From contig CAITTG010000092.1 of NCBI GenBank assembly GCA_903895255.1, positions 128,306-192,305 of the forward strand: a stretch of 64,000 nucleotides of DNA, in the 5' to 3' direction. Shown here piece after piece: positions 31,466 to 45,313 of this stretch. The position numbers and the translations under genes were made by a program. The notes below the pieces were generated by a model. That model was given only the letters and a program-made list of their open reading frames with translations, did no database searches and had not been told where the DNA came from. Source of the DNA: an uncultured Verrucomicrobia subdivision 3 bacterium (GTDB lineage Bacteria; Verrucomicrobiota; Verrucomicrobiia; Limisphaerales; UBA11358). The stretch's first letter is position 1. Each line of letters begins with the position of its first letter.

Positions 31466-32683
31466 CTAAACCGGGTAGATAATGCAAGCTTTGGCAGCTT
31501 CACGCCAGGCCGCTTCTTCTTGTTCCCAACCGGCGGCAATTTCCCGCCAATGCTGTCCGGCTTCCAGCGCCCGCCGTTCACGATCGCTGCCAAACAGCAG
31601 GTCAATCGCAATCGGGTTGTCCACAAACTCATAGGTTTCGGTGCGCCAGCGGAAATCGTCTCCGGATAACTCCCGCATCACCGCCAGCAGCATGAGGCTG
31701 GTGCGCACCGGTTGAAAGACGGCCCGGTCCGTCACATGCAGTTGCACCCCGCCGCACTCCCGGCCGGCATGCTTTTGAAACGTTGGTTTGAAGCCCGCCG
31801 CTCGAAACACCACTCCCGGCAGCTCCTCGGCATTGAGTTTTCTGGCCAGGCTGGCCGCCTCCAGCCAGGGCGCGCCGAACAGTTCAAAGGGCCGGGTGGT
31901 GCCCCGCCCTTCCGAGAGGTTGGTGCCCTCCAACAGGCATTGGCCCGGATAGACCACCGCCGTCTCCACCGTGGGCATGTTGGGTGACGGCAGCACCCAC
32001 GGCAGGCCGGTGTCCTCAAAATACATGCCGCGCCGCCAGCCCGCGCACTTAATGATTTCCACCTGGGACCGCTCCAGGTTCCGCGCCGCCTGATAAAACC
32101 GCGCCAGTTCGCCCATGGTCAGGCCATGCCGTGTCGCCATGTTGTGCGGCCCCACAAAACTCTCGTAACCCGGCTGCAAGGCCGGCCCTTCAACCACGAC
32201 GCCCCCCAGGGGATTGGGCCGGTCCAAAATCATCACCCGCAGGCCGATCACGTGCGCAGCCTCCAGACAGTAGAGCATCGTGGCTTGAAAGGTATAGTAG
32301 CGGCTGCCGATATCCTGCAAATCAATCACCAGGGCATCCAGCCCGGCCAACTGCTCCGCCGTGGGCCGCAAACTCGCCACCGTCTGCCCGTACAAGCTGA
32401 TGACCCGCGGGCCTTGCCGGCTTCCCGTTTCCGCCTTCCCGCCTTCCCGCTTTCCGCTTTCGTCATCCACCGGCTCCAAATCCTGGGCCTGCCCCAGCCA
32501 GCCATGCTCGGGCCCAAAGACCGCCGCCAGCGTCACCCCGGGCGCGGCACGGATCAAATCCGCCGCGTGGCGCAACCCGGCATCCACCGAGGCCGGGTGC
32601 GCCACCAACCCCACGCGCAGGCCCCGCAACCGTTTAAATTGCTCCGCCACCAAAATGTCCAAACCCGTCAGCACTTTTTTCAT
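31466..32683 (-). CDS. Exo-beta-N-acetylmuramidase-like protein (DUF1343/NamZ family)
   Basis: A 405-residue protein of the DUF1343 family; the characterised member NamZ cleaves terminal MurNAc from peptidoglycan fragments. Conserved parts are RVGLVAHPASVDAGLRHAAD, AVFGPEHGWLGQAQDLEP, LVIDLQDIGSRYYTFQATM and the segment ending DRPNPLGGVVVEGP. The N-terminus lacks a clear signal peptide. Residues 76-90 (SGKREGGKAETGSRQ) form a low-complexity insertion where relatives have a short linker, arising from a purine-rich DNA repeat at 32418-32462. The conserved core is otherwise intact. Likely cell-wall recycling. Confidence 0.88.
   Translation of the reverse strand: MKKVLTGLDILVAEQFKRLRGLRVGLVAHPASVDAGLRHAADLIRAAPGVTLAAVFGPEHGWLGQAQDLEPVDDESGKREGGKAETGSRQGPRVISLYGQTVASLRPTAEQLAGLDALVIDLQDIGSRYYTFQATMLYCLEAAHVIGLRVMILDRPNPLGGVVVEGPALQPGYESFVGPHNMATRHGLTMGELARFYQAARNLERSQVEIIKCAGWRRGMYFEDTGLPWVLPSPNMPTVETAVVYPGQCLLEGTNLSEGRGTTRPFELFGAPWLEAASLARKLNAEELPGVVFRAAGFKPTFQKHAGRECGGVQLHVTDRAVFQPVRTSLMLLAVMRELSGDDFRWRTETYEFVDNPIAIDLLFGSDRERRALEAGQHWREIAAGWEQEEAAWREAAKACIIYPV
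32418..32462. repeat. Low-complexity pyrimidine repeat inside the DUF1343 gene
   Basis: A stretch of degenerate copies of a CTTCCCGC-type unit on the plus strand, read in frame on the minus strand as charged, Gly/Lys/Glu-rich residues. It interrupts an otherwise conserved loop. It looks like a replication-slippage or small dispersed-repeat insertion. Confidence 0.6.
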
Positions 32684-32835
32684 GTTAATTAAAACCCAAT
32701 TCTCATTTGGCCGGGGGTGCCGCTCCGGTCGTTATTGTCACAACCTCGCGAAAAACCTCGTCCCCACTAAAACCCCAGCCCGGCGGACTGGGAAACCTTA
32801 ACCACCACACGCATGCAGTCCAAACCGTCCTTCCT

Positions 32836-32866
32836 GATCTCGTAGGAAACGACGTCAGGAGTTTCT
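32836..32866 (+). repeat. Short dispersed palindromic repeat, copy 1
   Basis: Shares the 20-base string GATCTCGTAGGAAACGACGT with 35782, followed by a matching AGTTTCT block. GAAAC and GTTTC can pair across a 10-base loop. It lies in the gap between the DUF1343 gene and the 896-residue protein gene; a direct copy lies on the other side of that gene. Confidence 0.75.
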
Positions 32867-32942
32867 AAAATAGTACCATCACCCGTCCGCCCGGACTACC
32901 GGCGACCGGCGAACAAGCCCCCCGGATCGCCCTCGCTCTTTC

Positions 32943-35633
32943 CTACGGCCCCGACCGCGCGCGAAAATACCGCTGCGCGTCATTGGTGACCGCCCCGGTA
33001 TTATATTGAAACACCCCATTGGTCGCCACCAAGGTCGTCACCGGCGTCCAATGCCACAAGTCCGTGGAAGTCTCCAAAAAATAGTAGCCACCCGCATCTC
33101 CGCTCGCGGACAATTGCAACGTCTGGTTGGCCAGTGCAGTGACCGTCTGGAACTGCGCCGGCGCGGCCGTCAGCAACGTGAGCGAAACGCTGGCACTGGT
33201 CACCGAACCAGCGGCATTGGTAAGGATCACCGCGTAGTTCCCGGCCTGGTTGGTTTGCACATTCGGCAAGCTGAGGCTCGCATTGGTTGCGCCCGTGATG
33301 GGCACCCCATTGAACCACCACTGATACCCCGGCGCCGGCAACCCGCTGGCGGTCACGGCAAAGCTGGCTGTCCCCGCGACCTTCACAAACCCATTCGTGG
33401 GCTGGGCCAAAATCACCGGTGCGACCGCCGGCACCTCCACCCGCACATTATCCACCAGGCCGAAACTCAAGTTCGTATTATCCGTCAGCGAGGCAAAAGG
33501 ATCCCAGAAGCCCACGCAGACATTGCTGGCGGTAAAGGTACAGTTGGAAATCGTTGCGATTCGATCGCCATCCACTGCCCAATCCACCGTGGTGCCCCGG
33601 CGGGAAATCATGAAATCATGCCACCCCAACCCCAGCGTGCCCGCGTTCAATGAGCCCGTCTGCTGGGCGTAAGCCGCTTGTTGCGCGGCGGGTGCGGCCG
33701 CTCCGCTGGGGAACGCGGTCAGGTAATAATTATTGAGATTATCCCGCGCCGTGGCATCGGTCCCGGCCAGGTAATCGCCCGTGGTATAACTCAAAAGCGT
33801 GGCTCCGGAGTAAACGCAATAATCCCCGGATGTGGTCGATCCGCTGGCCACGCCGCCATCGCCATCGGCGGAAAAATAATACCCATCAGCCGTGGAACCC
33901 GGGCCAGTCCACTCGGTTTGCCGGCCGGAGGTGCCCAGTCCCGCCACGAGAAACTCCGTGGAACTGGCCCCGCCCGCCGGAAAGGGCCCGTTCACATTGA
34001 TCCAGCCGTCGAAATGCAGCCGGTAATCCCCCGCAAAAGCCTGGTTCGCCGGCGAAATGCTGAGGGCCGCCACCACCGTCAGGCTCAGGTTGGCCTTGAG
34101 TTGCACCCCCTTGGTCGTGCCGCCCGCTGAATGGGGCGCGGACGGTATGCCCAGCTTCGAATAGTCAAAGGCAAACCCAATGGCCGTGTCGCTGGAACTG
34201 CGATTCACCACCCAGTTGGCCGCCGAGTTGGTGTCAAAATTATCCGCGAAAACCGTGGCCTGCGGCGGATAGACCAGCAGGCTCACCGGCGAACTGGTGA
34301 CGCCGCCGATGGCATTGGTCACCACAACTGTATAAAAACCAGTGTTACCAGGCTGGACATTATTTAAAATCAACTGGCTGTTGTTGGCCCCGGCCACGGG
34401 CAAACCATTTAACTTCCACGCATACGCCAGCGGTGGCGTCCCCCCGGCCGTGACACTGAAACTGACCGTCGCACCCGCATCAACGACCGGGCTTAGCACG
34501 GGCTGGCTGATCAGGTAGGGTGCCAGATTGGAACTGCCGATCACGGCGGCGGCCACCGCGTTATCCATGTCCGCCGTGCGTTCCTGTGCGTCCCAGAAAC
34601 TCACCCCGGCATAGCCGGCCACCGTGGCCTTCGGGGAGTTGGTTTGCAAGCAATTCAGAAACGCCGTGATTTCCGCCCCGGTGACCGGCGCGTAAGACTG
34701 CCCCAGCGGCACGATGGGTTTGATGGCATTGGTGTTAAAACCCGTCAGGCTGTTTTGCCAGGCCCGCCACTGGCTGTTCATGTTCACCACCATCGTGGTG
34801 GGACTGATGCCAATCGCCCCCCAGTAATCCTGCGGCATCACGGCATCGCAATTGGTGCCAAATTCCAGGTAGGGAAAACCCGAATGAGACTGAATGTAGG
34901 GAAAGGGCGCATGGGCCAAAAAGCGGGTGGGGTAGGCCGCGCGAATGGCGGTGCAGTAGGCCGTGGCATCCGCGCGGCGGGTGGCGTTGGTCTCGTATTC
35001 AATTTCCGCATCAATAATCAAGCCATCCGCCCCCAGCGACAAAGCGTTCTGGGCCACGCTAATTTCGGCGTTGAGGTTGGCCGTCTGGGTGCTGCCATTG
35101 CCAAAATGGCCGCTATTATTGCCATACGTGTAAGCCCACCCAAAAATCTTCAGACCGTCCGCATGGGCGCGCGTGATGAGATCGCTGCTGAACTGGGAAT
35201 AGATGGAGCCGCCGTCCCCGCATTTCACGGTGATCCACTGCATCCCCAGGTTTTTTTCATAATCCACCACCTGCTGGATGGTGGTCACCCCCAGATGCGT
35301 CATGGTGGTGCTCATTTGCCAGATCCAGTCCCCCTTGCCCAAGTTCGCCGGATTCACATTATTATCCAGCAGGCCCTGGGCGCTCACGCCCTGAGCCTTC
35401 ACGTTGGCGGGCTTTGCGGCGGCGGCCGGAGCGAGGTTGGTCGTTTCTCCCGCATGATCCGCCGAATTGACCCCGGCGGGCGGCCACGCCCCGGCATGGG
35501 TGCGCCGGTAATAAAGCTGGTCATCCGGTGGCCCGGACACCGGCTGGGCCGCCATCAGCCAGCCGGCCCCAAAAGCCCCGGCCAAACCCAGGCCAAGCAG
35601 GATCAACCATCGGAAAATGGCACAGCTGTTCAC
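32943..35633 (-). CDS. Secreted protein with TIM-barrel-like N-terminal domain and Ig-like domains
   Basis: An 896-residue exported protein with a GTG start. Residues 1-29 form a signal or anchor helix (FRWLILLGLGLAGAFGAGWL). Residues about 85-370 resemble a glycoside-hydrolase-like TIM barrel: MQWITVKCGDGGSIYSQF, LGADGLIIDAEIEYE, CDAVMPQDYWGA and YAGVSFWDAQER, with acidic residues at strand ends. Then come an Ig-like domain (about 375-455), a jelly-roll-like domain (about 460-735, with VGFWDPFASL) and a second Ig-like domain (about 740-820). No specific GH family is claimed. Two direct copies of a dispersed repeat flank the gene. Probably polysaccharide- or wall-directed. Confidence 0.75.
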   Translation of the reverse strand: MNSCAIFRWLILLGLGLAGAFGAGWLMAAQPVSGPPDDQLYYRRTHAGAWPPAGVNSADHAGETTNLAPAAAAKPANVKAQGVSAQGLLDNNVNPANLGKGDWIWQMSTTMTHLGVTTIQQVVDYEKNLGMQWITVKCGDGGSIYSQFSSDLITRAHADGLKIFGWAYTYGNNSGHFGNGSTQTANLNAEISVAQNALSLGADGLIIDAEIEYETNATRRADATAYCTAIRAAYPTRFLAHAPFPYIQSHSGFPYLEFGTNCDAVMPQDYWGAIGISPTTMVVNMNSQWRAWQNSLTGFNTNAIKPIVPLGQSYAPVTGAEITAFLNCLQTNSPKATVAGYAGVSFWDAQERTADMDNAVAAAVIGSSNLAPYLISQPVLSPVVDAGATVSFSVTAGGTPPLAYAWKLNGLPVAGANNSQLILNNVQPGNTGFYTVVVTNAIGGVTSSPVSLLVYPPQATVFADNFDTNSAANWVVNRSSSDTAIGFAFDYSKLGIPSAPHSAGGTTKGVQLKANLSLTVVAALSISPANQAFAGDYRLHFDGWINVNGPFPAGGASSTEFLVAGLGTSGRQTEWTGPGSTADGYYFSADGDGGVASGSTTSGDYCVYSGATLLSYTTGDYLAGTDATARDNLNNYYLTAFPSGAAAPAAQQAAYAQQTGSLNAGTLGLGWHDFMISRRGTTVDWAVDGDRIATISNCTFTASNVCVGFWDPFASLTDNTNLSFGLVDNVRVEVPAVAPVILAQPTNGFVKVAGTASFAVTASGLPAPGYQWWFNGVPITGATNASLSLPNVQTNQAGNYAVILTNAAGSVTSASVSLTLLTAAPAQFQTVTALANQTLQLSASGDAGGYYFLETSTDLWHWTPVTTLVATNGVFQYNTGAVTNDAQRYFRARSGP

Positions 35634-36322
35634 AATTCAAATGCGGACGAAATAATTTTCCTTAATGACTGCGTTTAATATCAAGCATCCGCCCGATAAT
35701 TCAAGGACAAACCCGCCATCCCGTGGCAAGCGGGCATCCTCGCAACCCTCAAGGCCCCGGTCACATCCCAACTCTCCCTCCGATCTCGTAGGAAACGACG
35801 TGTGGAGTTTCTGAAACGCGCCACGACCGTTCATCTAACCACCGTCCCTGCGCTGTCCCGCAACTTGGACTGCGCCGGCAGAGCGGCAGCGGCGACGGCG
35901 CTTTTCGAACAAATACCAGACTTGCAGGCAGCTTTACCCATTATGGTCCGCTACCATCCAAACCGTTCTCCCCGATGGCGTGACACCCCCCGTAATGGTC
36001 GGATGCTCCCCCCGGAGCGCGGCCGTCCCCGGGCGCAGCAACATAAATATCCCTGCCAGCGCTGGGCGGCATCCTTGGCCAGCCACCTTCATTTCCGGGC
36101 CTTCGGGTTTAAGCCACATTCCCGCAACCTGCCCATTCAATTGTCGCCCGCCCAAACCCCGGCTTGCCTGTCCCATCCCGCAGCGTTACCTTCCCTTCAT
36201 GCGTGAGGTTGTAACCAACAGCACATTATTCCCATCGGCAAATCCAGTGACGCTTTCTGCCGGAGGTGAAACCGCCGGCCGCCACCACCGTTAGGCCGCA
36301 CCGCCCAGACCGCCCACCTTTC
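35634..36322. other. Intergenic region with dispersed repeats
   Basis: 689 bp without a convincing gene; open frames here have no protein-like composition. It holds the second copy of the 31-bp repeat (35782-35812) and, at about 35861-35908, a GC-rich stretch with GGCAGAGCGGCAGCGGCGAC that resembles, from memory, a dispersed element common in verrucomicrobial genomes. That recollection cannot be checked here. Confidence 0.45.
35782..35812 (+). repeat. Short dispersed palindromic repeat, copy 2
   Basis: GATCTCGTAGGAAACGACGT identical to the copy at 32836, then GAGTTTCT with the same potential GAAAC/GTTTC pairing. Same orientation as copy 1, so the 896-residue protein gene sits between direct repeats. 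Confidence 0.75.
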
Positions 36323-37645
36323 ATGTCCCCCCAAGACTCCGTCAACTTCATCCGCGCGCAAATGCCCCCCGGCGGGCTCTTTGCCGGACTGGACTGGAAA
36401 ACCTCCCCCACCCCGTTTCCATTAGGCGAAAACCTGGCCCAGGAAATCACCGCCCTCGGCCGCGTGCTCCTGCAATTTTACCGCGCCGTCAACCTCCTCT
36501 ACCGCAAAAGCGCCGAGGGCAGGCAACCCGCATGGATCGCCCGCTGGCTGGACCTCGGCAAGCCGGCGGACCTGATCGCCCGGCAACGGTCCGCCGCCTT
36601 CAAGAACGACCTCCCCCGCGTCATCCGCCCGGACCTCCTGCTGACCGAAAACGGCCTGGCCATCACCGAGCTGGACAGCGTGCCCGGCGGCATCGGCCTC
36701 ACCGCCTGGTTAAACCGCACCTACTCCGCCCTCCCCGGTGCACCTGCGCCCCAGCCCGTCCTCGGTGGCGCCGACGGCATGCTCCAGGGCTTTGCCAGTA
36801 TTTTTGGCGACGCCAGGCGCGTTCACCTCGTGGTTTCGGAGGAAGCCGCCACCTACCGCCCCGAAATGGCCTGGGTCGCCGCGCAATTAGGCGCGGACCG
36901 TTTCCAAGTCCGCGACGCCACCTTCACCGATTTTCAAGCCGACGACGCCGTGTACCGCTTCTTTGAACTCTTCGACCTGGCCAACGTGCCCAACAGCGGC
37001 CAGATATTTGATCTCGCGGCCGAGAAACGCCTCCGGCTCACGCCGCCCCCCAAGCCGGTGTTCGAGGAAAAAATGCTCTTCGCCCTCCTCTGGAACCGTA
37101 ACCTCCAGGAATTCTGGCGGCAGGAACTCGGCGAAGGTTTCCTCAAGCAGCTCAAGAAACTGACCCCCTACACCTGGCTGGTGGACCCGGCCCCCCTGCC
37201 CCCTCACGCGGCCATTCCCGAACTCAACCTCACCGACTGGCAACAGCTAAAAACCTTGTCACAACGGGACCGCGACCTCATCTTGAAAGTCTCCGGCTTT
37301 TCCGAAAACGCCTGGGGCGCCCGCGGGGTTTATCTCGGCAGCGATTTGTCCCAAGCCGACTGGAGTGCCGCCGTGGATGCCGCCCTGCGCACCTTCGCCA
37401 CCTCCCCCAGCGTGCTGCAACGCTTCCACAAACCCGCCCTCGTGGACGCCAGTTGGTTCGACCCCGCCGCCCAGGCCGTCGTCCCCATCAAAGGCCGCGC
37501 CCGGCTCTGCCCCTACTACTTCGTCGCTGGCGAAGGCGACTCCGCCCGCCCCCAACTCGGCGGCGTCCTCGCGACCATCGTCCCCGCCGACAAAAAGATC
37601 GTCCACGGCATGACCGACGCCATCCTCGCCCCCTGCTCTGCTTGA
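36323..37645 (+). CDS. Unassigned protein, possibly circularly permuted ATP-grasp-like
   Basis: A 440-residue cytoplasmic protein with no signal peptide. I do not recognise a named family with confidence. Two segments recall ATP-grasp proteins of the glutathionylspermidine-synthase type: IRPDLLLTENGLAITELDSV followed by PGGIGLTAWL, and LILKVSGFSENAWGARGVYL. Later LCPYYFVAGEGDSARPQLGG could be part of the nucleotide or substrate site. If this is right it would form a peptide-like amide bond, but no substrate can be named. The start at 36323 (MSPQDSVNF) is preferred over 36266. It is a single plus-strand gene with no obvious partner. Confidence 0.7.
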   Translation: MSPQDSVNFIRAQMPPGGLFAGLDWKTSPTPFPLGENLAQEITALGRVLLQFYRAVNLLYRKSAEGRQPAWIARWLDLGKPADLIARQRSAAFKNDLPRVIRPDLLLTENGLAITELDSVPGGIGLTAWLNRTYSALPGAPAPQPVLGGADGMLQGFASIFGDARRVHLVVSEEAATYRPEMAWVAAQLGADRFQVRDATFTDFQADDAVYRFFELFDLANVPNSGQIFDLAAEKRLRLTPPPKPVFEEKMLFALLWNRNLQEFWRQELGEGFLKQLKKLTPYTWLVDPAPLPPHAAIPELNLTDWQQLKTLSQRDRDLILKVSGFSENAWGARGVYLGSDLSQADWSAAVDAALRTFATSPSVLQRFHKPALVDASWFDPAAQAVVPIKGRARLCPYYFVAGEGDSARPQLGGVLATIVPADKKIVHGMTDAILAPCSA

Positions 37646-38407
37646 GGCAAGGCTGGTACCGGCGCCTTCCTCAATCCCCCGGCGCGCGGGTCCGTGACCC
37701 GCAGCACCTGCGCCTGCCATGGGACACCGGAATTAACCGTCAATCTCCGAATGCAGTCCCCTTGTTTTCCTTCGTTACCTTGTGTAAAAACCGGTTCTTT
37801 CTTGCGCTCTCTGTGTTCTTTCGCGGCCATTAAAAAGGGCCGGGCAGGGGAGCCTGATCCCCGGCGCGCGGGTCCATGACCCGCAGCACGTGCTCCTGCC
37901 ATGGGACACCGGAATTAACCGTCAATCTCCGAATGCAGTCCCCCTTGGTTTCCGTCGTTACCTGCTGTGAAAACCGGTTCTTTTTTGTGCTCTCTGTGTT
38001 CTTTCGCGGCCATTAAAAAGGGCCGGGCAGCGCGGCCAAATCCCCGGCGCGCGGGTCCGTGACCCGCAGCACGTCCCTTCGCTGGCGGCGATTCTCCCTC
38101 CCCCCGAGGGCGGGGACCGGGGTGGCGCGAGTGCTGGTTTGGGAGTGCGTTGACAAGTCACCGCTGTGGAACGCGACGATCCCGCTCTGCGGGACGCGGT
38201 CATGTCCGCGCACTGCCCAATGCTACCACCACTCCCCCCGCTGGCTTTTTAATTTGACCGTCTTTGACTAACCACGACCATCGCGCGGTTAACCGCCCGC
38301 CAAATTCAGCCGCCTCAGCCACCCGGGGAACCACATCCATCAACCGAAAAAATTGGGGTTACCGTGGGGGTTTGACAAGCCGGCCCCGTTTGGGCCACAT
38401 TGGGACC
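37646..38407. other. Repeat-rich intergenic region
   Basis: 762 bp with no credible gene. The left part is a 182-bp tandem repeat (separate entry). The right part (38070-38260) has several hairpin-capable GC-rich strings, for example CCCGC-TCT-GCGGG near 38190. A possible promoter TTGACA at 38372-38377 precedes the RelB-like gene. Confidence 0.5.
37681..38073. repeat. 182-bp tandem repeat, two full copies plus a partial third
   Basis: Units begin with GGCGCGCGGGTCC at 37681, 37863 and 38045, spaced exactly 182 bp; the third copy stops after about 29 bp. Each unit opens with a hairpin (GCGGGTC, 3-base loop, GACCCGC) and closes with TTCTTTCGCGGCCATTAAAA. The copies differ at scattered positions. 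The loop changes (CGT, CAT, CGT) while the arms stay intact, suggesting the hairpin is maintained. No open frame spans the array. Confidence 0.9.
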
Positions 38408-38626
38408 ATGAGTGCCATCGCCAAAAGCCGCATCGACCCCGAGTTGAAACGCCAGGCGGAAGCCGTATTGGCCGAGATCGGCTTGAAACCACGGGCCGCG
38501 CTGGAACTGTTTTACAAACAGATCATCAAGCGCCGGGCCATTCCGTTTCCGGTTCAAGCCGACAGCCCCGAAGAGGAAGTGTTGAGCCCGGCGGCCCGGC
38601 GCAATCAACTGGCGGATGAATTTTAA
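38408..38626 (+). CDS. RelB/DinJ-like antitoxin
   Basis: A 72-residue small protein. The N-terminal KSRIDPELKRQAEAVLAEIG and LKPRAALELFYKQIIKRRAI match RelB/DinJ ribbon-helix-helix antitoxins, which pair the DNA-binding fold with a toxin-binding C-terminal tail (here QADSPEEEVLSPAARRNQLA). An upstream in-frame extension to 38264 is rejected. Its normal toxin partner (RelE/YafQ type) is absent; instead a truncated PemK/MazF-like frame follows after 2 bp. It may therefore be an orphan antitoxin. Confidence 0.82.
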   Translation: MSAIAKSRIDPELKRQAEAVLAEIGLKPRAALELFYKQIIKRRAIPFPVQADSPEEEVLSPAARRNQLADEF

Positions 38627-38628
38627 CC

Positions 38629-38733
38629 ATGCGCACGGTCCCCCAACCCGGCGACCTTTGGTTAATTGATTTGGGCCTGGTGGGCACCCGCACCGGAAGG
38701 TCCGAGCGGCACTGCCAACCTATCATCGGCTGA
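38629..38733 (+). pseudogene. Truncated PemK/MazF-like toxin remnant
   Basis: A 34-codon frame begins 2 bp after the RelB-like gene: MRTVPQPGDLWLIDLGLVG is typical of the N-terminus of PemK/MazF-type RNase toxins, but it then diverges (TRTGRSERH) and stops at 38733. Full-length relatives are about 110 residues, so the catalytic core and C-terminus are missing. The remainder appears to have been deleted up to the end of hsdR at 38776. Confidence 0.6.
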
Positions 38734-38775
38734 TGAGCTGTCAAATGGGAAAACGGCGGAAAGTCAGCCTCGGAT

Positions 38776-41700
38776 TCACACCGCCCAATCCCCGCACAAC
38801 AACTTCGCCTGTTCCAACACCGTTTGCGTGGCCTTCTCCTGTTTATCCGGCGGATACCCATACTTGCGCAGAATGCGCCGGACCAGCACCCGGATTTGCG
38901 CCTGGGCCGACTCGCGCAAGGTCCAGTCAATGGTCACGCTTTTGCGGACGTGCGCGACCAGTTCGCGCGCGATTTCCTTCAAGGCCGGCTCGCCCAGAAC
39001 TTTCACGGCACTATCGTTCGTTTCCAGCGCGTCATAAAACGCCACCTCATCATCCGTCAGCCCCAATTTCGCACCCCGTTTCTGGCCCTCGCGCATTTGC
39101 CTGGCCAGTTCGATGAGTTCCGCAATCACCTGCGCGGCCTCAATGGTCCGGTTCTGGTATTTGCGAATGGTCGCCTCCAGCATTTCGGCGAAGGACCGCG
39201 ACTGCACCAGATACTTTTTCGACCGGACCTTTAATTCATTGTTCAGCAGCTTTTGCAGCAACTCCACCGCCAGGTTGCGCTGGGGCAGATGCTTGACCTC
39301 GGCCAAAAACTCGTCGGACAAAATGGAAATGTCCGGCTTCTTCAAGCCGGCGGCATCGAAAATGTCGATCACCTTGTCGGACGAAATGGCGCGGGAAACA
39401 ATCTGCCGCACGGCCAGCTCCAATTCCTCCGGGGACTTCCCGCCCCCCTCGCTGATGCTCTTGGCCAGCACCGCCCGGACTTCCTGAAAAAATCCGACCT
39501 CATCGCGAATCGCCAAAGCCGAATCATGCGGCACCGCCAGCGCAAACGCCTTGGACAAATCCGACACCGCTTGCAAATACCGTGGCTTCCCGTCCTTTTG
39601 CGCCAGCACCTGCTCGGCCGCCTGCGCAATGAGCGGCAGCCGCTTCGCCGCCGTCGTTTCCGCCGCGCCCGGGTAATCAAACCCGTGCAGGATGGCGCAG
39701 ACCTGCTCGTATTTCTCCTGCATCACCGCCACCGCTTCCTCCTGGTCCAGCGTGATGTCGCCCCGGCCCTGGCTGTTCGTGTAATCCGCCAGCGCCTGTT
39801 TCAATTCCTCCGCCAGCCCCAGATAGTCCACCACCAAACCGCCGGGCTTGTTGCTGAAAACCCGGTTCACCCGCGCAATGGCCTGCATCAGCCCGTGCCC
39901 GCGCATCGGCTTGTCCACATACATCGTGTGCAAGCTCGGCGCATCAAAGCCGGTCAGCCACATGTCCCGCACGATCACGATGCGGAACGGCTTCTTCGGA
40001 TTCTTAAACGCCTTCGCCAATTCCTCGCGCCGGGCTTTGCTGCGAATATGCGGCTGCCAGTCCAACTTATCCGAGGCCGAGCCAGACATGACGATCTTCA
40101 TCACGCCCTTGTCGTCCTCATCCTGATGCCAGTCCGGCCGCAGCGTCTGGATCGCCTTGTACAGCTCCACACAAATGCGCCGGCTCATGCACACCACCAT
40201 CGCCTTGCCCTCCATCGCCGCGTAGCGCGCCTCCCAGTGCTTCACCAAGTCCGCGGCCACCAGCGCAATCCGCTTTTCCGTCCCCACCATCGCCTCCAGT
40301 TGCGCCCACTTCCGGCGCAGGCTTTCCTTCGTGGCTTCCTCCGCGTCCTCCGTGACCTCCTCAAAATTCGGGTCAATCTTCGGACGTTCCTCCGGCTTCA
40401 AATCAATCTTCGCCAGCCGCGCCTCGTAATAAATCGGCACCGTCGCCTTGTCCTCCTTCGATTGCAGAATGTCGTAAACGTCGATGTAATCGCCGAACAC
40501 CGCCTGCGTGTTCCGATCCCCGCTTTCAATCGGCGTGCCGGTGAAACCAATGAACGACGCCTTCGGCAGCGCATCGCGGATATGCTTGGCGAAGCCATCA
40601 ATGAAATCGTACTGGCTTCGGTGCGCTTCGTCGGCAATGACCACAATGTTGCGCCGGTCGGACAGCAACGGATGCTTCCCGCCCTTCTCATCCGGAAAGA
40701 ATTTCTGAATGGTGCTGAACACCACGCCCCCACTGGCCACCTCCAGCAATTCCCGCAAATGCTCCCGGCTCTCCGCCTGCACCGGTGTCTGCCGCAGCAA
40801 CTCCTTGCAGGCGGAAAACGTGCCAAAAAGCTGGTCATCCAAATCGTTGCGGTCCGTGAGCACCACCACCGTGGGATTCTCCATCGCCGGATGCTGCACG
40901 ATTTTCCCGGCATAAAACACCATCGAAAGACTCTTGCCACTCCCCTGCGTATGCCAGATCACCCCCGCCCGCCGGTCACCAATATTACTATCCGTAGGAG
41001 ACGAGGTGACGAGTCTCTGATTACTCCCCAGCTTTCCAGATGGCTCCCCCACCCCCGCCGCCCTTAAAGTCGCCTCCACCGCCTTGTTCACCGCATGAAA
41101 TTGATGATACCCCGCCAGCTTCTTGACCACCGCCTCCCCATTATCCTCAAACACCACAAAGTTCCGGACCAAATCCAGCAGCCGCGACTTCTCAAAGACT
41201 CCTTTCAACAGCGTATCCAATTGCAACGACCCCGGCGGCACCAGCTCCCGGCCCGTGACCGTGCGCCACGTCATAAACCGCTCCCAGTCCGACGTAATGG
41301 TTCCCAACTTCGCCTGATGCCCGTCCGAAATCACCAGCAGGGCATTGGAATGAAACAACGCCGGGATTTGCGCCTTGTACGTCTTAAATTGATCGAACGC
41401 CTTGCGCAAGGTGGCCGATTCATCCGCAATGTTCTTGAGTTCCAGCACCGCCAGCGGGATGCCGTTGATGAAAATCACCACATCCGCGCGCCGGTTGAAA
41501 TGACCTTCCTCCACCGTGAACTGATTCACGGCCAGAAATTCATTGGCTTCCGGATGCGCAAAATCAATCAGCCAGACCTTGTCATGAACGGTCTCGCCAT
41601 AATCCCTTCCCTCGCCCTTTGGGAGAGGGTCAGGGTGAGGGAGGCTCCGCCTGTATTCCACATCCACCCCTTCCACCAGCAGCCGGTGAAAAGCCCGGTT

Positions 41701-41949
41701 GTTTTCGATCAGCGTGGGATGGCTGATGAGCCGGAGTTTTCTCAGCGCCTCCTCGCGGCCTGCCAGGGGAATCGAGGGATTCAAATCCTCCAGCTTGGCG
41801 CGCAGCCGGTCGAACAATAACACCTGCCGGTAATCCGTGCGCTCCGCCGCCGGCTCGCCAGGCGCAATGGTCAGCCCAGGCAAAACTTCGTAGTCAAGGT
41901 TGCCGAGCCAGTCGAGCGCTGCCTGTTCAACTATGGCTTCGTTGATCAT
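38776..41949 (-). CDS. hsdR: Type I restriction enzyme R (motor/nuclease) subunit
   Basis: A 1057-residue ATP-dependent translocase/nuclease of a type I restriction system. The PD-(D/E)xK nuclease is at D156 and E170-L-K172 (ADVVIF...LELKN). Motor motifs follow: Walker A TQGSGKS (334-340), DEAH ([14 protein letters not shown]), [16 protein letters not shown] and the helicase-like C-terminal motifs ([10 protein letters not shown]). The start [10 protein letters not shown] at 41949 overlaps the dprA-like TAA by one base. Two stretches look foreign: residues 102-116 and 306-323 are encoded by palindromic repeats (separate entries) and fall between conserved blocks, so the protein could still work. 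Partner subunits are hsdM and hsdS upstream. Confidence 0.95.
40992..41024. repeat. Dispersed palindromic repeat inserted in frame in hsdR
   Basis: CCGTAGGAGACGAGG followed by TGACGAGTCTCTGATTA. It matches the 32836/35782 repeats in layout (GTAGGA.ACGA.GT...GAGT.TCT). Its arms are GAGAC/GTCTC where the others have GAAAC/GTTTC, a paired substitution that keeps the hairpin. It is read as [11 protein letters not shown] in hsdR just before the [12 protein letters not shown] motif. Confidence 0.7.
41605..41643. repeat. Palindromic CCCTCACCCTGACCC-type repeat inserted in frame in hsdR
   Basis: TCCCTCGCCCTTTGGGAGAG continuing to GGTCAGGGTGAGGGA; the arms can fold as a hairpin. On the coding strand it is read as [12 protein letters not shown], a well-known peptide signature of a bacterial interspersed repeat. 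It sits between VEYRRS and DKVWLIDF, where relatives have a short loop. Confidence 0.8.
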
Positions 41950-43241
41950 TAAAGCAGCCGTTCGGAGTTGGTTGCCACTAGATACTGAACCGGCTTGGTC
42001 TTTTTGACCTTCTTGACTGTTTCTTCTTTGATCAGTTTGGCCAGCCACTCCTTCGTTTGAAGTTTGGTTACGCCAAGAAGATTCACAATTTCCGCTTCAG
42101 TGTGACCAAACACCAGTTCCCGCCGCAGTATTTCGCGCACGGTCTTGAAAAGTTCCTCGGCTGGGGCTGAAATTACTTTCGGCTCGCCTCCAACAAGCTT
42201 GGCAGGCTCGACTGGTTTGCCTGGGCTGGTGTATGGAGCTGGCTGCTCCCGCAGCGCGAAAGCAAGTGCTTCCTGTTTGGGCTCCGTAGCCGCCGCTTCC
42301 ACTGCTGCCGTAATCATCTGCCCAAGTTCTGCCGCATTCTCCGGGTTTGGCCAAGGCCGGCCGCCATGATGGATAAGCGCGGCATTTCCCCGACCCGCAT
42401 TGTTTCCATTTCGAACAAACACCGGGACAAAATGAAGTCGTTCAAGTTGCTCAATTGCCCCCGTCCAGGTGCCACCCTTTTCAAAATCCGAAGTCACCAC
42501 CAACCCGGCATCGGCGAGGGCATAGATGACCTTGTTGCGCTGCATGGCATGTCCCACGTTAAATCCCGCCGCTGGATCATAAGGCGAAATGAGCACCAGC
42601 CGACCTTCCATCAACGGCTCGCGATTGTCCCGGGCCAATGCGGCACGCTCCAGGCTGTCCCCCATCACGCCCGCCACCTCGCCGTCCGCCAGCAGGGCAC
42701 CATGCATGGCCGCCCGGTCAATTCCTTTCGCCCCACCGGAGATGACGGTTCGGTGTGCCTTGGCAGCCAGCCGCCCCACGTTCTCCGTGAAACTGATCAG
42801 CTCATCATCCACCTGCCGTGACCCAACCACCGCGAGCCCGCCTTTCTCCAGCAAACCAATTTCACCACAGCCATAAAGCAAAGGCGGAGCATCTTCCTTG
42901 AGCCGTGACTTCAAACGCTTGGGATAACGCGAATCCGCCCGGCTGATCACCCAAATGGCCCGCGCATTCCATCGCTCCACCGCCTGACTAAGCAAAAACC
43001 CGCGCCCAAGCAACGAAGCCAATCGCTCGCGGCCAAATGGCTGCGCACAGAGTTCAATCAAAGCTTGCGCGTCTGGCTCCATCAAGTCGGCCGGCTGCTT
43101 CTGCTTCTCGCGTAGGAGCCGGGCGAGTCGGTTGTATTCACCCAGGCTGAGCAAATCAGGTGAGTTCTCACCGCGCCCCGCAACCAGCGGCGCGGTCAGC
43201 AGCAGGATGGCCTGCGTGTTTGATGTTAGAGGTTCGATCAT
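41949..43241 (-). CDS. DprA/Smf-like SLOG-fold DNA-processing protein
   Basis: A 430-residue protein with a central DprA Rossmann fold: [60 protein letters not shown] and [20 protein letters not shown]. The C-terminus (about 365-430) looks like a winged helix. DprA loads RecA on incoming single-stranded DNA in transformation; related SLOG proteins also occur in nucleotide-linked conflict systems. Here its overlap with the helicase/PRTase gene (4 bp, ATGA) and with hsdR (1 bp) points to a defence-linked role rather than competence; that is inference. The N-terminal ~90 residues are unlike DprA SAM domains I know. Confidence 0.86.
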
Positions 43242-45313
43242 TCGTCAGCGTTCGCAGTTGAGGCCAGCGCCAGAGGATACACCGGCCCGCTGCCGTTTGA
43301 GGTTAATAAAAATGCCGCCACCGTCAAAGTCCACTTTGAATCCACCATGTCGTCCACCAGCAACACCGGACCATTCGGGACAGTTCCGTGAATCCGCAAA
43401 GCTCCGTCCACATTCCGGGCTTGCTGGGCACTGTTCGCCATTTCCTTCTGGGCCGGCCGGTCATCGGTTTTTTCCAGCACGGGACAAAATGGCAAATTCA
43501 AGGCAGCCGCCAGACGCCGCGCAAAGTCAGGCACCAACTCCAGGTGGCGGCGGGATGGAATACAAGTGAGCCAGGCGGGGGCGGGTTGTGGTGACCAAGT
43601 GCGCACCATGGCCGCACAGGCTTCGACGAGTTGATCGGCAAACCGTCCGTCTCGGGATTTCCCTTGGCGGACCAGGGTCCCCCAACCGGCATCATTCCAA
43701 ACGCACAACACTCGCCCGGGCTGTGGTCGCAATGCTTCTGGAATGTTTCCACGCACATTCAGTTGTGTCAGTCCGCCGGTCGGCCACTGCCGGCGCGGCT
43801 CTAGTGGCAGGCTGGTCCGGCGCAAATAAGTCACTGCCTCGCGGCCCAATTCCGCATCGAAAGTTTCCGGAAGCGGTTCGATGTTTGGCATCGGATGATC
43901 ACCCGGATTACCATCCAGGGCCCGGATGAGATTTTCCATGTGACCCGACGTGAGCTTCACGTATTCCTGCATCTGTTGCTGTTCGGCGCGGCGCAAAGCG
44001 GTGAGGCGATCCGCCCGCTCCCAAAATACTTCGGTAAGGTTTGCCGCCGTAAGTTTCCACTTGCTGCCGTCTTTCACGATGGGTGGCGGCGTTTCCAGTG
44101 ACAGCAGTTGTACCGCTTTCTCGATCCGTCCCTTGCTTGCATTCACCCGTGGCAGTAGTTCGTTGATGGAAAGCCCTTCCGTTGCGCCTTGTAACGCTGC
44201 CAGCACGCCCGCAACTTCTTCCCGCGATGGGAAGGCGCTTTCAATAAAGAAGTCCGTGATGTCGGTTTCTTCCACCCCGCTCAATAATACTCCATGCGCA
44301 GCCGCTAGGGCCCGGCCAGCCCGACCGACTTGCTGGTAATAAGCCACGACTGAACCGGGTGTCTGGAAGTGAATCACAAAGGCAAGGTCCGGCTTGTCGA
44401 ACCCCATGCCCAGCGCCGTGGTCGCCACCAACGCTTTCACGCGATTTTCCAGAAGTGCATTCTCCAGTTCCACCCGGCGTTCGCCCGTTTCCCCGCTATA
44501 AGACTCCGCTTGGATGCCGCGTGACTGCAACCATCCCGCGATCTGCACCGCATCGCGAACCGTCAGCGTGTAGATAATGCCACTGCCTTGGATGTTCGGC
44601 ACATGCGTTGCCAGCCAGGCCATTCGCGCAACTTGACTCGGATGACTGATGGTCTGGAGCAAAAGCGAGGGGCGACCCAGTTCCCCCCGCATTACGGTGA
44701 GATTTGGTCCCAGCACCGTTTCGAGATCGGCCAGCACCCGGTTGTTTGCGGTCGCCGTGGTCGCCAGTACCCGTAAATTGCGCGGCATGGTGCGGAGAAT
44801 CCGTTCGATGAAACGGTAGTGCGGGCGGAAATCATGCCCCCAATCCGAAATGCAGTGCGCCTCGTCAATCACCAGCAAAGAGACACGACCGGCGATGGGC
44901 GCCAGCACTTCCATGCGGAAATGTTCGTTCGCCAATCGTTCCGGCGAGATCAGCAATATATCCACCTCGTTCCGCGCCAGCGCCGCCTCAACCGCCTGCC
45001 AGTCGTCGCGATTCTCCGAATTGATGGTGACGGCACGAACCCCCATCCGCGCGGCCGCCGCGATTTGATTGCGCATCAATGCCAGCAGCGGTGAAATCAG
45101 GATGGCCGGCCCCATGCCTCCCTCGCGCAGCAATTTGGTCGCGATAAAATAAACGGAACTCTTGCCCCAGCCTGTCCGCTGCACCACGAGCAACCGCCCG
45201 ACCCCGTCCACCACATGCTGAATCGCCGCCTCTTGTCCTTCGCGAAAGTCGGCGGCGGGATTCTGCGTGCCGAGGCGCAGAAGCTCGAGTGCATGTTCGG
45301 CGTGGTAGGGCAT
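43238..45313 (-). CDS. RecQ-like helicase fused to a ComF-like phosphoribosyltransferase domain
   Basis: A 691-residue fusion. Residues 20-345 are an SF2 RecQ-type helicase: TGWGKS (47-52), LISPLLALMRNQ, LLVIDEAHCISDWGHDFRPH (DEAH at 150-153), ATTALGMGFDKPDL and QQVGRAGR (327-334). Residues 446-475 align with the RecQ zinc region but have no cysteines. The C-terminal ~130 residues resemble ComF-type phosphoribosyltransferases: AWLTCIPSRRHLELVPDFAR, KTDDRPAQKEMANSAQQARN and the PRPP-loop LLVDDMVDSKWTLT (651-664). It starts 5 bp after hsdS and overlaps the DprA-like gene by 4 bp. Substrate of the PRTase is unknown. Confidence 0.87.
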   Translation of the reverse strand: MPYHAEHALELLRLGTQNPAADFREGQEAAIQHVVDGVGRLLVVQRTGWGKSSVYFIATKLLREGGMGPAILISPLLALMRNQIAAAARMGVRAVTINSENRDDWQAVEAALARNEVDILLISPERLANEHFRMEVLAPIAGRVSLLVIDEAHCISDWGHDFRPHYRFIERILRTMPRNLRVLATTATANNRVLADLETVLGPNLTVMRGELGRPSLLLQTISHPSQVARMAWLATHVPNIQGSGIIYTLTVRDAVQIAGWLQSRGIQAESYSGETGERRVELENALLENRVKALVATTALGMGFDKPDLAFVIHFQTPGSVVAYYQQVGRAGRALAAAHGVLLSGVEETDITDFFIESAFPSREEVAGVLAALQGATEGLSINELLPRVNASKGRIEKAVQLLSLETPPPIVKDGSKWKLTAANLTEVFWERADRLTALRRAEQQQMQEYVKLTSGHMENLIRALDGNPGDHPMPNIEPLPETFDAELGREAVTYLRRTSLPLEPRRQWPTGGLTQLNVRGNIPEALRPQPGRVLCVWNDAGWGTLVRQGKSRDGRFADQLVEACAAMVRTWSPQPAPAWLTCIPSRRHLELVPDFARRLAAALNLPFCPVLEKTDDRPAQKEMANSAQQARNVDGALRIHGTVPNGPVLLVDDMVDSKWTLTVAAFLLTSNGSGPVYPLALASTANADE

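Follow-up and report, generated by a model that had tools for sequence, protein, structure and literature searches.

Repetitive extragenic palindromic (REP) elements tagged by GTAG, the REP-associated tyrosine transposases (RAYTs) and intragenic REPs, including those of Opitutus terrae, are already known (PMC3733652, PMC6006769, PMC8266576 and PMC3116915, here and below in the parts of these four papers that treat them). In the GTAG superfamily (Di Nocera 2013, PMC3733652), short imperfect palindromes carry the GTAG tag and complementary stem changes, form doublets, flank RAYT genes and sometimes lie in frame within genes; O. terrae, a member of the Verrucomicrobia, is rich in GTAG repeats, many of them intragenic. 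All these features recur in a family that we describe from a 64,000-nucleotide stretch (the window; contig CAITTG010000092.1, positions 128,306 to 192,305) of an uncultured Verrucomicrobia subdivision 3 bacterium of the order Limisphaerales. The three copies in the window are members of a GTAG-tagged REP family, small mobile elements found across this one order, and such REPs are very probably recognised, cut and inserted elsewhere by a divergent RAYT encoded on another contig, C120, of the same genome.

Compared with the superfamily (PMC3733652), this family differs in being order-wide, in its GA/GA mismatch and GTNA loop, and in consisting, in the window's genome, mostly of strand-oriented singlets; it may nevertheless be identical with one of the 24 families of that study. 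The Escherichia coli RAYT, TnpAREP (PDB 4er8; PMC6006769, PMC8266576), shares the core of a HUH motif and a single tyrosine, as well as flanking GTAG REPs, and the E. coli REP too needs an internal stem mismatch (PMC8266576). In contrast, the enzymes considered here form a divergent clade, with weak Pfam E-values and with NCBIfam scores that, where seen, lie below the cut-off. The main text of PMC6006769 does not mention Verrucomicrobia. As in REPINs (Bertels and Rainey 2011, PMC3116915), in which the inverted doublet is the unit, inverted doublets of the REP prevail elsewhere in the order, and a cas1 gene of the window's genome holds a degraded one; however, 59 of the 68 copies in this genome are singlets, with no related hairpin within 150 bp, and they show a strand bias. 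Rickettsia palindromic elements (PMC3733652) also lie in frame in coding genes but, by description, the window family is linked with a RAYT and its coding copies are rare (2 of 68). The element is therefore of a known kind, and what is new is the RAYT clade and the unusual dispersal. We found no published account of the order-wide family, of the RAYT clade or of a genome-wide strand bias of singlets, in a search that fell short of most subscription papers.

A GTAG-tagged REP family of one order

Copies 1 and 2 (32842..32868 and 35788..35814, both on the plus strand) are singlets with a GAAAC stem. The first lies between two minus-strand genes, preceded by the lineage-specific flank CCTGATCTC, and the second lies upstream of the gene for an 896-residue protein. 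An initial annotation of the window had placed repeats at 32836-32866 and 35782-35812 in direct orientation, and we confirm this: 29 of 31 positions are identical, the first 20 without a break. The third relative that it pointed to, in the restriction gene hsdR, is present at 40993-41020, with a GAGAC/GTCTC stem compared with GAAAC/GTTTC in the other two. A 28-nt REP consensus, allowing three mismatches, finds three copies in the window versus none in 100 dinucleotide shuffles. Positions 32000-42100 gave no match to Rfam at E ≤ 1.

The family was surveyed by pattern and core scans. The genome of the window (5.06 Mb, 135 contigs) contains 68 copies with up to three mismatches, and a reversed control pattern gave none; 29 of the 68 match a degenerate 27-nt consensus without mismatch. 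Bases 2 to 4 of the 5' arm assign 56 copies to the GAAAC type, 8 to GAGAC and 4 to other types. The element consists of GTAG, a 5-bp stem, the GA/GA mismatch, one C-G or G-C pair, the GTNA loop, the 3' arm and, usually, TGA. In this genome, a longer conserved flank surrounds the GAAAC copies, with CCCTGATCTC ahead of GTAG and ATAAATCC following TGA; it is only partly common to the copies of a sibling species (G215), while 150 distinct copies from other genomes show no strong upstream flank and end in TGAC. Among 245 genomes drawn from the order, 56 have an exact 24-nt match to the REP and 97 have a relative with a CAGCC stem. A scan of named genomes gave at least 108 REP stretches, whose titles are mostly Limisphaerales, Verrucomicrobia subdivision 3 or other Verrucomicrobia.

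The change of stem in the hsdR copy had been taken as compensatory, and this proves to be general. In 106 distinct REP sequences selected solely by their unpaired core, Watson-Crick pairs fill 533 of the 636 stem cells, whereas 1000 shuffles gave 406 on average and 435 at most; the core itself had no match in 0.88 million bases of shuffled sequence. Stems with paired changes include GAAAC, GAGAC, GAGTC, GAGCC, GAATC and CCGCC, one stem pair is found as A-T, C-G and T-A, and the inner pair as C-G or G-C. Two observations count against a fold: all six pairs are intact in just 30 of the 106 sequences (at least five in 83), and the three window hairpins, folded singly as DNA, are no stabler than shuffles (z from -0.3 to -0.9). 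The case for a fold is thus one of covariation and not of energy. The unpaired GTAG at the palindrome end, the dispersed, mostly extragenic copies and the complementary stem variation are the marks of GTAG REPs, as is the flanking of a RAYT gene by the same repeat, seen at several loci including the one on C120. The REP-like identity proposed at the outset, which hung on finding further copies with conserved stems, is borne out by the tag, the imperfect palindrome, the covarying stem pairs and the 68 dispersed copies.

Two side observations concern the assemblies. On contigs C5, C42, C56, C89, C92, C99 and C115 of the sibling species, GAAAC REPs and REP tandem arrays of about 100 bp lie near contig ends, so that copy numbers from such assemblies are probably too low. 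Some REP-bearing metagenome-assembled genomes are labelled Akkermansia, Klebsiella or Proteobacteria. The Verrucomicrobial REP is present on contigs that bear the names Akkermansia muciniphila or Klebsiella pneumoniae (L050, L053, L063, L115, L144 and others), and L063 also has the REP's RAYT; these labels look doubtful.

The RAYT clade and its stem types

A RAYT-type transposase had been predicted elsewhere in the genome, and a homologue does lie at C120:34311-34898 (72% identity to the protein P0003). It is flanked by the same GAAAC variant as copies 1 and 2, with REPs at 34163 (minus strand), 34273 (minus), 34971 (plus), 35030 (minus) and 35303 (minus). A more distant paralogue, at C122:24507-25064, is without the window REP and has its own repeat, GTAGCTGCAAACTGGCGTTTGCAGC, with five copies around the gene and one elsewhere.

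In two other genomes, G021 and G197, inverted REP copies about 720 to 760 bp apart enclose an open reading frame of 191 or 207 residues, with MPDHxHLVW and a downstream tyrosine. Pfam gives these E-values of 0.0079 and 0.31, and the NCBIfam model REP_Tyr_transpos gives 1.8e-9 and 1.8e-11. All 16 aligned members of the clade match this model (NF047646) by E-value, the best at 1.6e-18, while their best E-value for Pfam Y1_Tnp is 0.0055; the C120 protein is absent from the Y1_Tnp matches of its genome. A profile of the clade matches TnpAREP (PDB 4er8) at E = 5.1e-5 across the HUH and tyrosine regions, with E = 0.0093 for a single sequence, and its similarity to a profile of five ordinary RAYTs of the window's genome (L031-L035) is weak (probability 13.7). 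The catalytic tyrosine is invariant in 27 of 27 aligned rows, which were picked by a pattern that includes the second histidine and not the tyrosine, two pairs of rows being the same locus. Seven loci left out of this alignment, one of them with an internal stop, also have HxH and the tyrosine. The HUH motif with a downstream tyrosine that is expected of a RAYT is therefore present in the clade. Judged by sequence, the REP-flanked proteins are a divergent clade of predicted RAYTs, nearly invisible to Pfam, so that orphan REP families in other phyla may likewise have overlooked cognate enzymes. Homologues are found in 82 of the 245 genomes at E ≤ 0.001, and clade membership was set at 1.6e-18 or better (54 genomes).

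A locus was scored as flanked if a core REP lay no more than 500 bp from the match, with mismatches summed over core and pairs; one rule served for the clade and for 68 control loci with Y1_Tnp matches. With up to two mismatches, 27 of 30 clade loci have the core REP, 24 of them on both sides; with up to three, the numbers are 29 and 26. Under neither threshold does any control locus have it. Loci met more than once (L234 = L287 = L068, L235 = L267, L276 = L069) were counted once each among the 30. The exception is L295, which a different GTAG hairpin flanks on either side.

The type of stem found at the RAYT matches the type amplified in the genome. Exact GAAAC REPs number 39 in the window's genome, 23 in the sibling species and one each in G019, G095, G124 and G221, with none in the 239 others, and among the RAYTs that were fetched, only those of the first two genomes have GAAAC flanks. 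An exact REP of the GARAC or CAGCC pattern is present in 46 of 54 clade genomes versus 62 of 191 others (Fisher p = 2.7e-12, kinship being ignored). On a tree of 25 RAYT proteins, the stem class needs 4 changes, the fewest possible, and none of 200 shuffles is as low; this is a quick tree with some weak branches and stem labels set by hand from the flanks, in which GAAAC, GAGAC, GAGTC and the like are pooled as GAxxC and L279, with one GTGAC flank, is included. The order thus provides sets of RAYT clade and REP stem that belong together; since the stem class follows the transposase tree, RAYT/REP specificity can be tested by stem swaps.

Strand bias and a proposed dispersal of single units

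Copies that share a contig in the window's genome are in the same orientation in 63 pairs and in opposite orientation in 19 (permutation p ~0.0001), and 29 of 35 adjacent pairs are on the same strand. For 65 of the 68 copies, the C-rich strand is the one that bears GTAG; with 200 bp around the copies and the RAYT contig left out, the same holds for 61 of 62 copies and for 31 of 32 contigs. This bias persists with distance but grows weaker, from 18 of 19 loci at 0.2-1 kb to 15 of 19 at 7.5-10 kb. In the sibling species, all nine REP contigs listed show the same bias by majority strand. Within the three window copies, G outnumbers C on the GTAG strand (8 G and 4 C, 10 and 3, and 11 and 4), so that base drift would predict the opposite bias. 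Gene orientation was rejected as a cause, because plus- and minus-strand genes of the same stretch agree in the sign of their skew (correlation 0.78 over 21 stretches), and GC skew thus marks the DNA strand and not the direction of genes. The region of the S10 ribosomal operon was tried as a marker of the leading strand and was uninformative, its skew being close to 0.

The position of GTAG on the C-rich strand and the prevalence of singlets fit insertion as single-stranded DNA during replication. The genome's matching transposase probably spreads the REPs in a strand-specific manner. The C120 RAYT, with its HUH motif and one tyrosine, would recognise the folded single-stranded REP, cleave beside it and insert it elsewhere; single units would move as single-stranded DNA with a replication-linked strand preference that leaves GTAG on the C-rich strand. 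In its most specific form, that the RAYT disperses single units at replication forks, with GTAG nearly always on the same replication-defined strand, the proposal is tentative, and somewhat under an even chance. If it is correct, singlets are the primary mobile form and not REPIN debris, and the strand bias is a genomic footprint of RAYT transposition. The spread of REPs has been described as poorly understood (PMC8266576), and oriented tandem REP arrays have been reported on opposite sides of one chromosome (PMC3116915). Strand-coherent singlets point to a replication-linked, single-stranded route in natural genomes, and challenge the view that only doublets move.

Alternatively, the singlets may be decayed remnants of REPIN doublets, in line with the view taken of singlets in PMC3116915. 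Doublets indeed dominate elsewhere: of 139 exact copies in named genomes of other species, 108 have a relative no more than 150 bp away. In the window's genome, however, the nine copies that are not singlets include as clear cases only four copies at the RAYT and the degraded cas1 doublet, and the inverted doublet is not the unit there. The other 59 have no detectable partner within 150 bp, yet 29 of the 68 match the 27-nt consensus perfectly; moreover, decay of inverted pairs should leave either orientation, whereas 61 of 62 copies share the same relation to GC skew. We consider decay unlikely, although it is the alternative that survives best. Somewhat less likely still is that the REP is a selected terminator or mRNA stabiliser, placed by selection and not by insertion. 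In favour of such a role, 38 of the 51 copies with a call have, next to their GTAG side, a gene on the same strand as the REP, but orientation tracks GC skew (61 of 62) more closely than it tracks gene orientation, which does not set the skew itself. Against this role are also the in-frame copies in hsdR and cas1, the absence of copy 1 from the syntenic site of the sibling species, the weak hairpins and the lack of an Rfam match.

Several points weigh against mobilisation by the C120 RAYT itself. Cleavage, insertion and the movement of singlets as single-stranded DNA with a replication-linked preference are steps that we infer, and no clean insertion junction was found against a near-identical empty site. 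Among the singlets of other genomes, the strand bias is not significant (16 of 24). The three NF047646 scores seen (37.6, 44.1 and 43.7 bits) fall short of the model's cut-off of 80, and an AlphaFold model of the RAYT, built from three sequences, is poor, with a mean pLDDT of 36. The GAAAC match amounts to one evolutionary event, as the RAYTs of the window's genome and of the sibling species are near-identical. Eight clade genomes have neither exact REP pattern. Conversely, 26 genomes with at least 10 exact REPs (for instance G008 with 60 and G097 with 129) have no detected clade member; their genes may have been lost or not assembled, but there may also be another mobiliser.

Ordinary RAYTs, the flanked gene and copies in defence genes

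Mobilisation by an ordinary RAYT of the Y1_Tnp type is highly improbable. The window's genome has 9 matches to Pfam Y1_Tnp (PF01797), which is what speaks for such an enzyme; 11 copy-rich genomes add 57 and 7 further genomes 46. The 68 control loci were taken from these 112 matches, found in 18 of the 19 genomes searched. In none of the 68 does the REP core lie 500 bp or less from the match at up to two or three mismatches, and the five that have a REP farther away have it at 614 bp or more. Under a strict rule, seven of the 68 are bracketed by a GTAG hairpin pair of another kind. Other RAYTs of the order (L031, L035, L148, L171, L174, L241 and L297) bear distinct GTAG hairpins to either side, so that several REP-RAYT systems coexist there. 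Besides, genome G021 has the REP without any Y1_Tnp match at E ≤ 0.001. On the evidence of their flanks, we reject the Y1_Tnp RAYTs as mobiliser.

The gene between copies 1 and 2 (32943..35633, minus strand) encodes the 896-residue protein, which has Ig-like domains, and lies outside the element. The copies do flank it, as first noted, but the flanking is incidental. In the sibling species, this gene and its neighbour are arranged alike, the aligned blocks being 29 bp apart versus 278 bp in the window, and copy 1 is missing at this syntenic site; no REP was found in this locus or in that of the orthologue in G222 (5.2 and 5.3 kb). A composite mobile unit bounded by the two copies, as their direct orientation on both sides of the gene might suggest, is rejected in view of these REP-free loci, and same-strand neighbours are common anyway (29 of 35 adjacent pairs).

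Copy 3 (40994..41020, plus strand) lies antisense and in frame in hsdR, the gene of a type I restriction subunit (38776..42048, minus strand), which keeps an uninterrupted frame of 1090 codons. It encodes 10 residues in a linker before the Walker A motif. By an open reading frame and codon criterion, only 2 of the 68 copies in this genome are intragenic, both GAGAC, antisense and with the same 10-residue reading. The second lies in frame in a type II cas1 (L020:989-2071, contig C27), with a degraded partner 44 bp away; both called in-gene copies therefore sit in defence genes. In other genomes, 39 of 231 copies were flagged as intragenic, but the heuristic applied also picks up shadow frames, and this figure is not used as a count. 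Coding copies would persist if the reading frame is left unbroken and the insertion falls in a linker that tolerates it, as seen in hsdR and cas1.

The linker that holds the hsdR insert is variable. Among the closest orthologues, G188 has a GTAGCAGC doublet, G060 a GTAGCGC doublet and G073 a repeat ending in GGGTGAGGG, and G192 and G045 have a short, insert-free linker. Distant orthologues without a REP have linkers of similar length, so that the insertion junction can be placed only approximately. Repeated and tolerated in-frame insertions have left a natural record in this linker. HsdR is 83 to 89% identical across several families of the order, which suggests horizontal transfer, and the GAGAC copy may have come along with the gene.

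A second palindromic repeat, CCTCGCCCTTTGGGAGAGGGTCAGGGTGAGGG, is inserted in hsdR at 41610-41641, where it encodes 11 residues of the N-terminal part. Of the orthologues in the alignment, G192 (L207) is the only one to share it at that position, where G012 (L212) carries another insert. Just past copy 2, at 35865-35904, lies another dispersed repeat of about 40 bp, which is 88 to 98% identical at many sites in genus-mates, among the matches listed. Homologues of PsyrA and PsyrT (PADLOC E = 1.1e-129 and 1.4e-270) occupy 41949-45313. They are nested in the type I restriction operon, with hsdR on one side and a type I specificity gene on the other, and look like a toxin-antitoxin defence pair.

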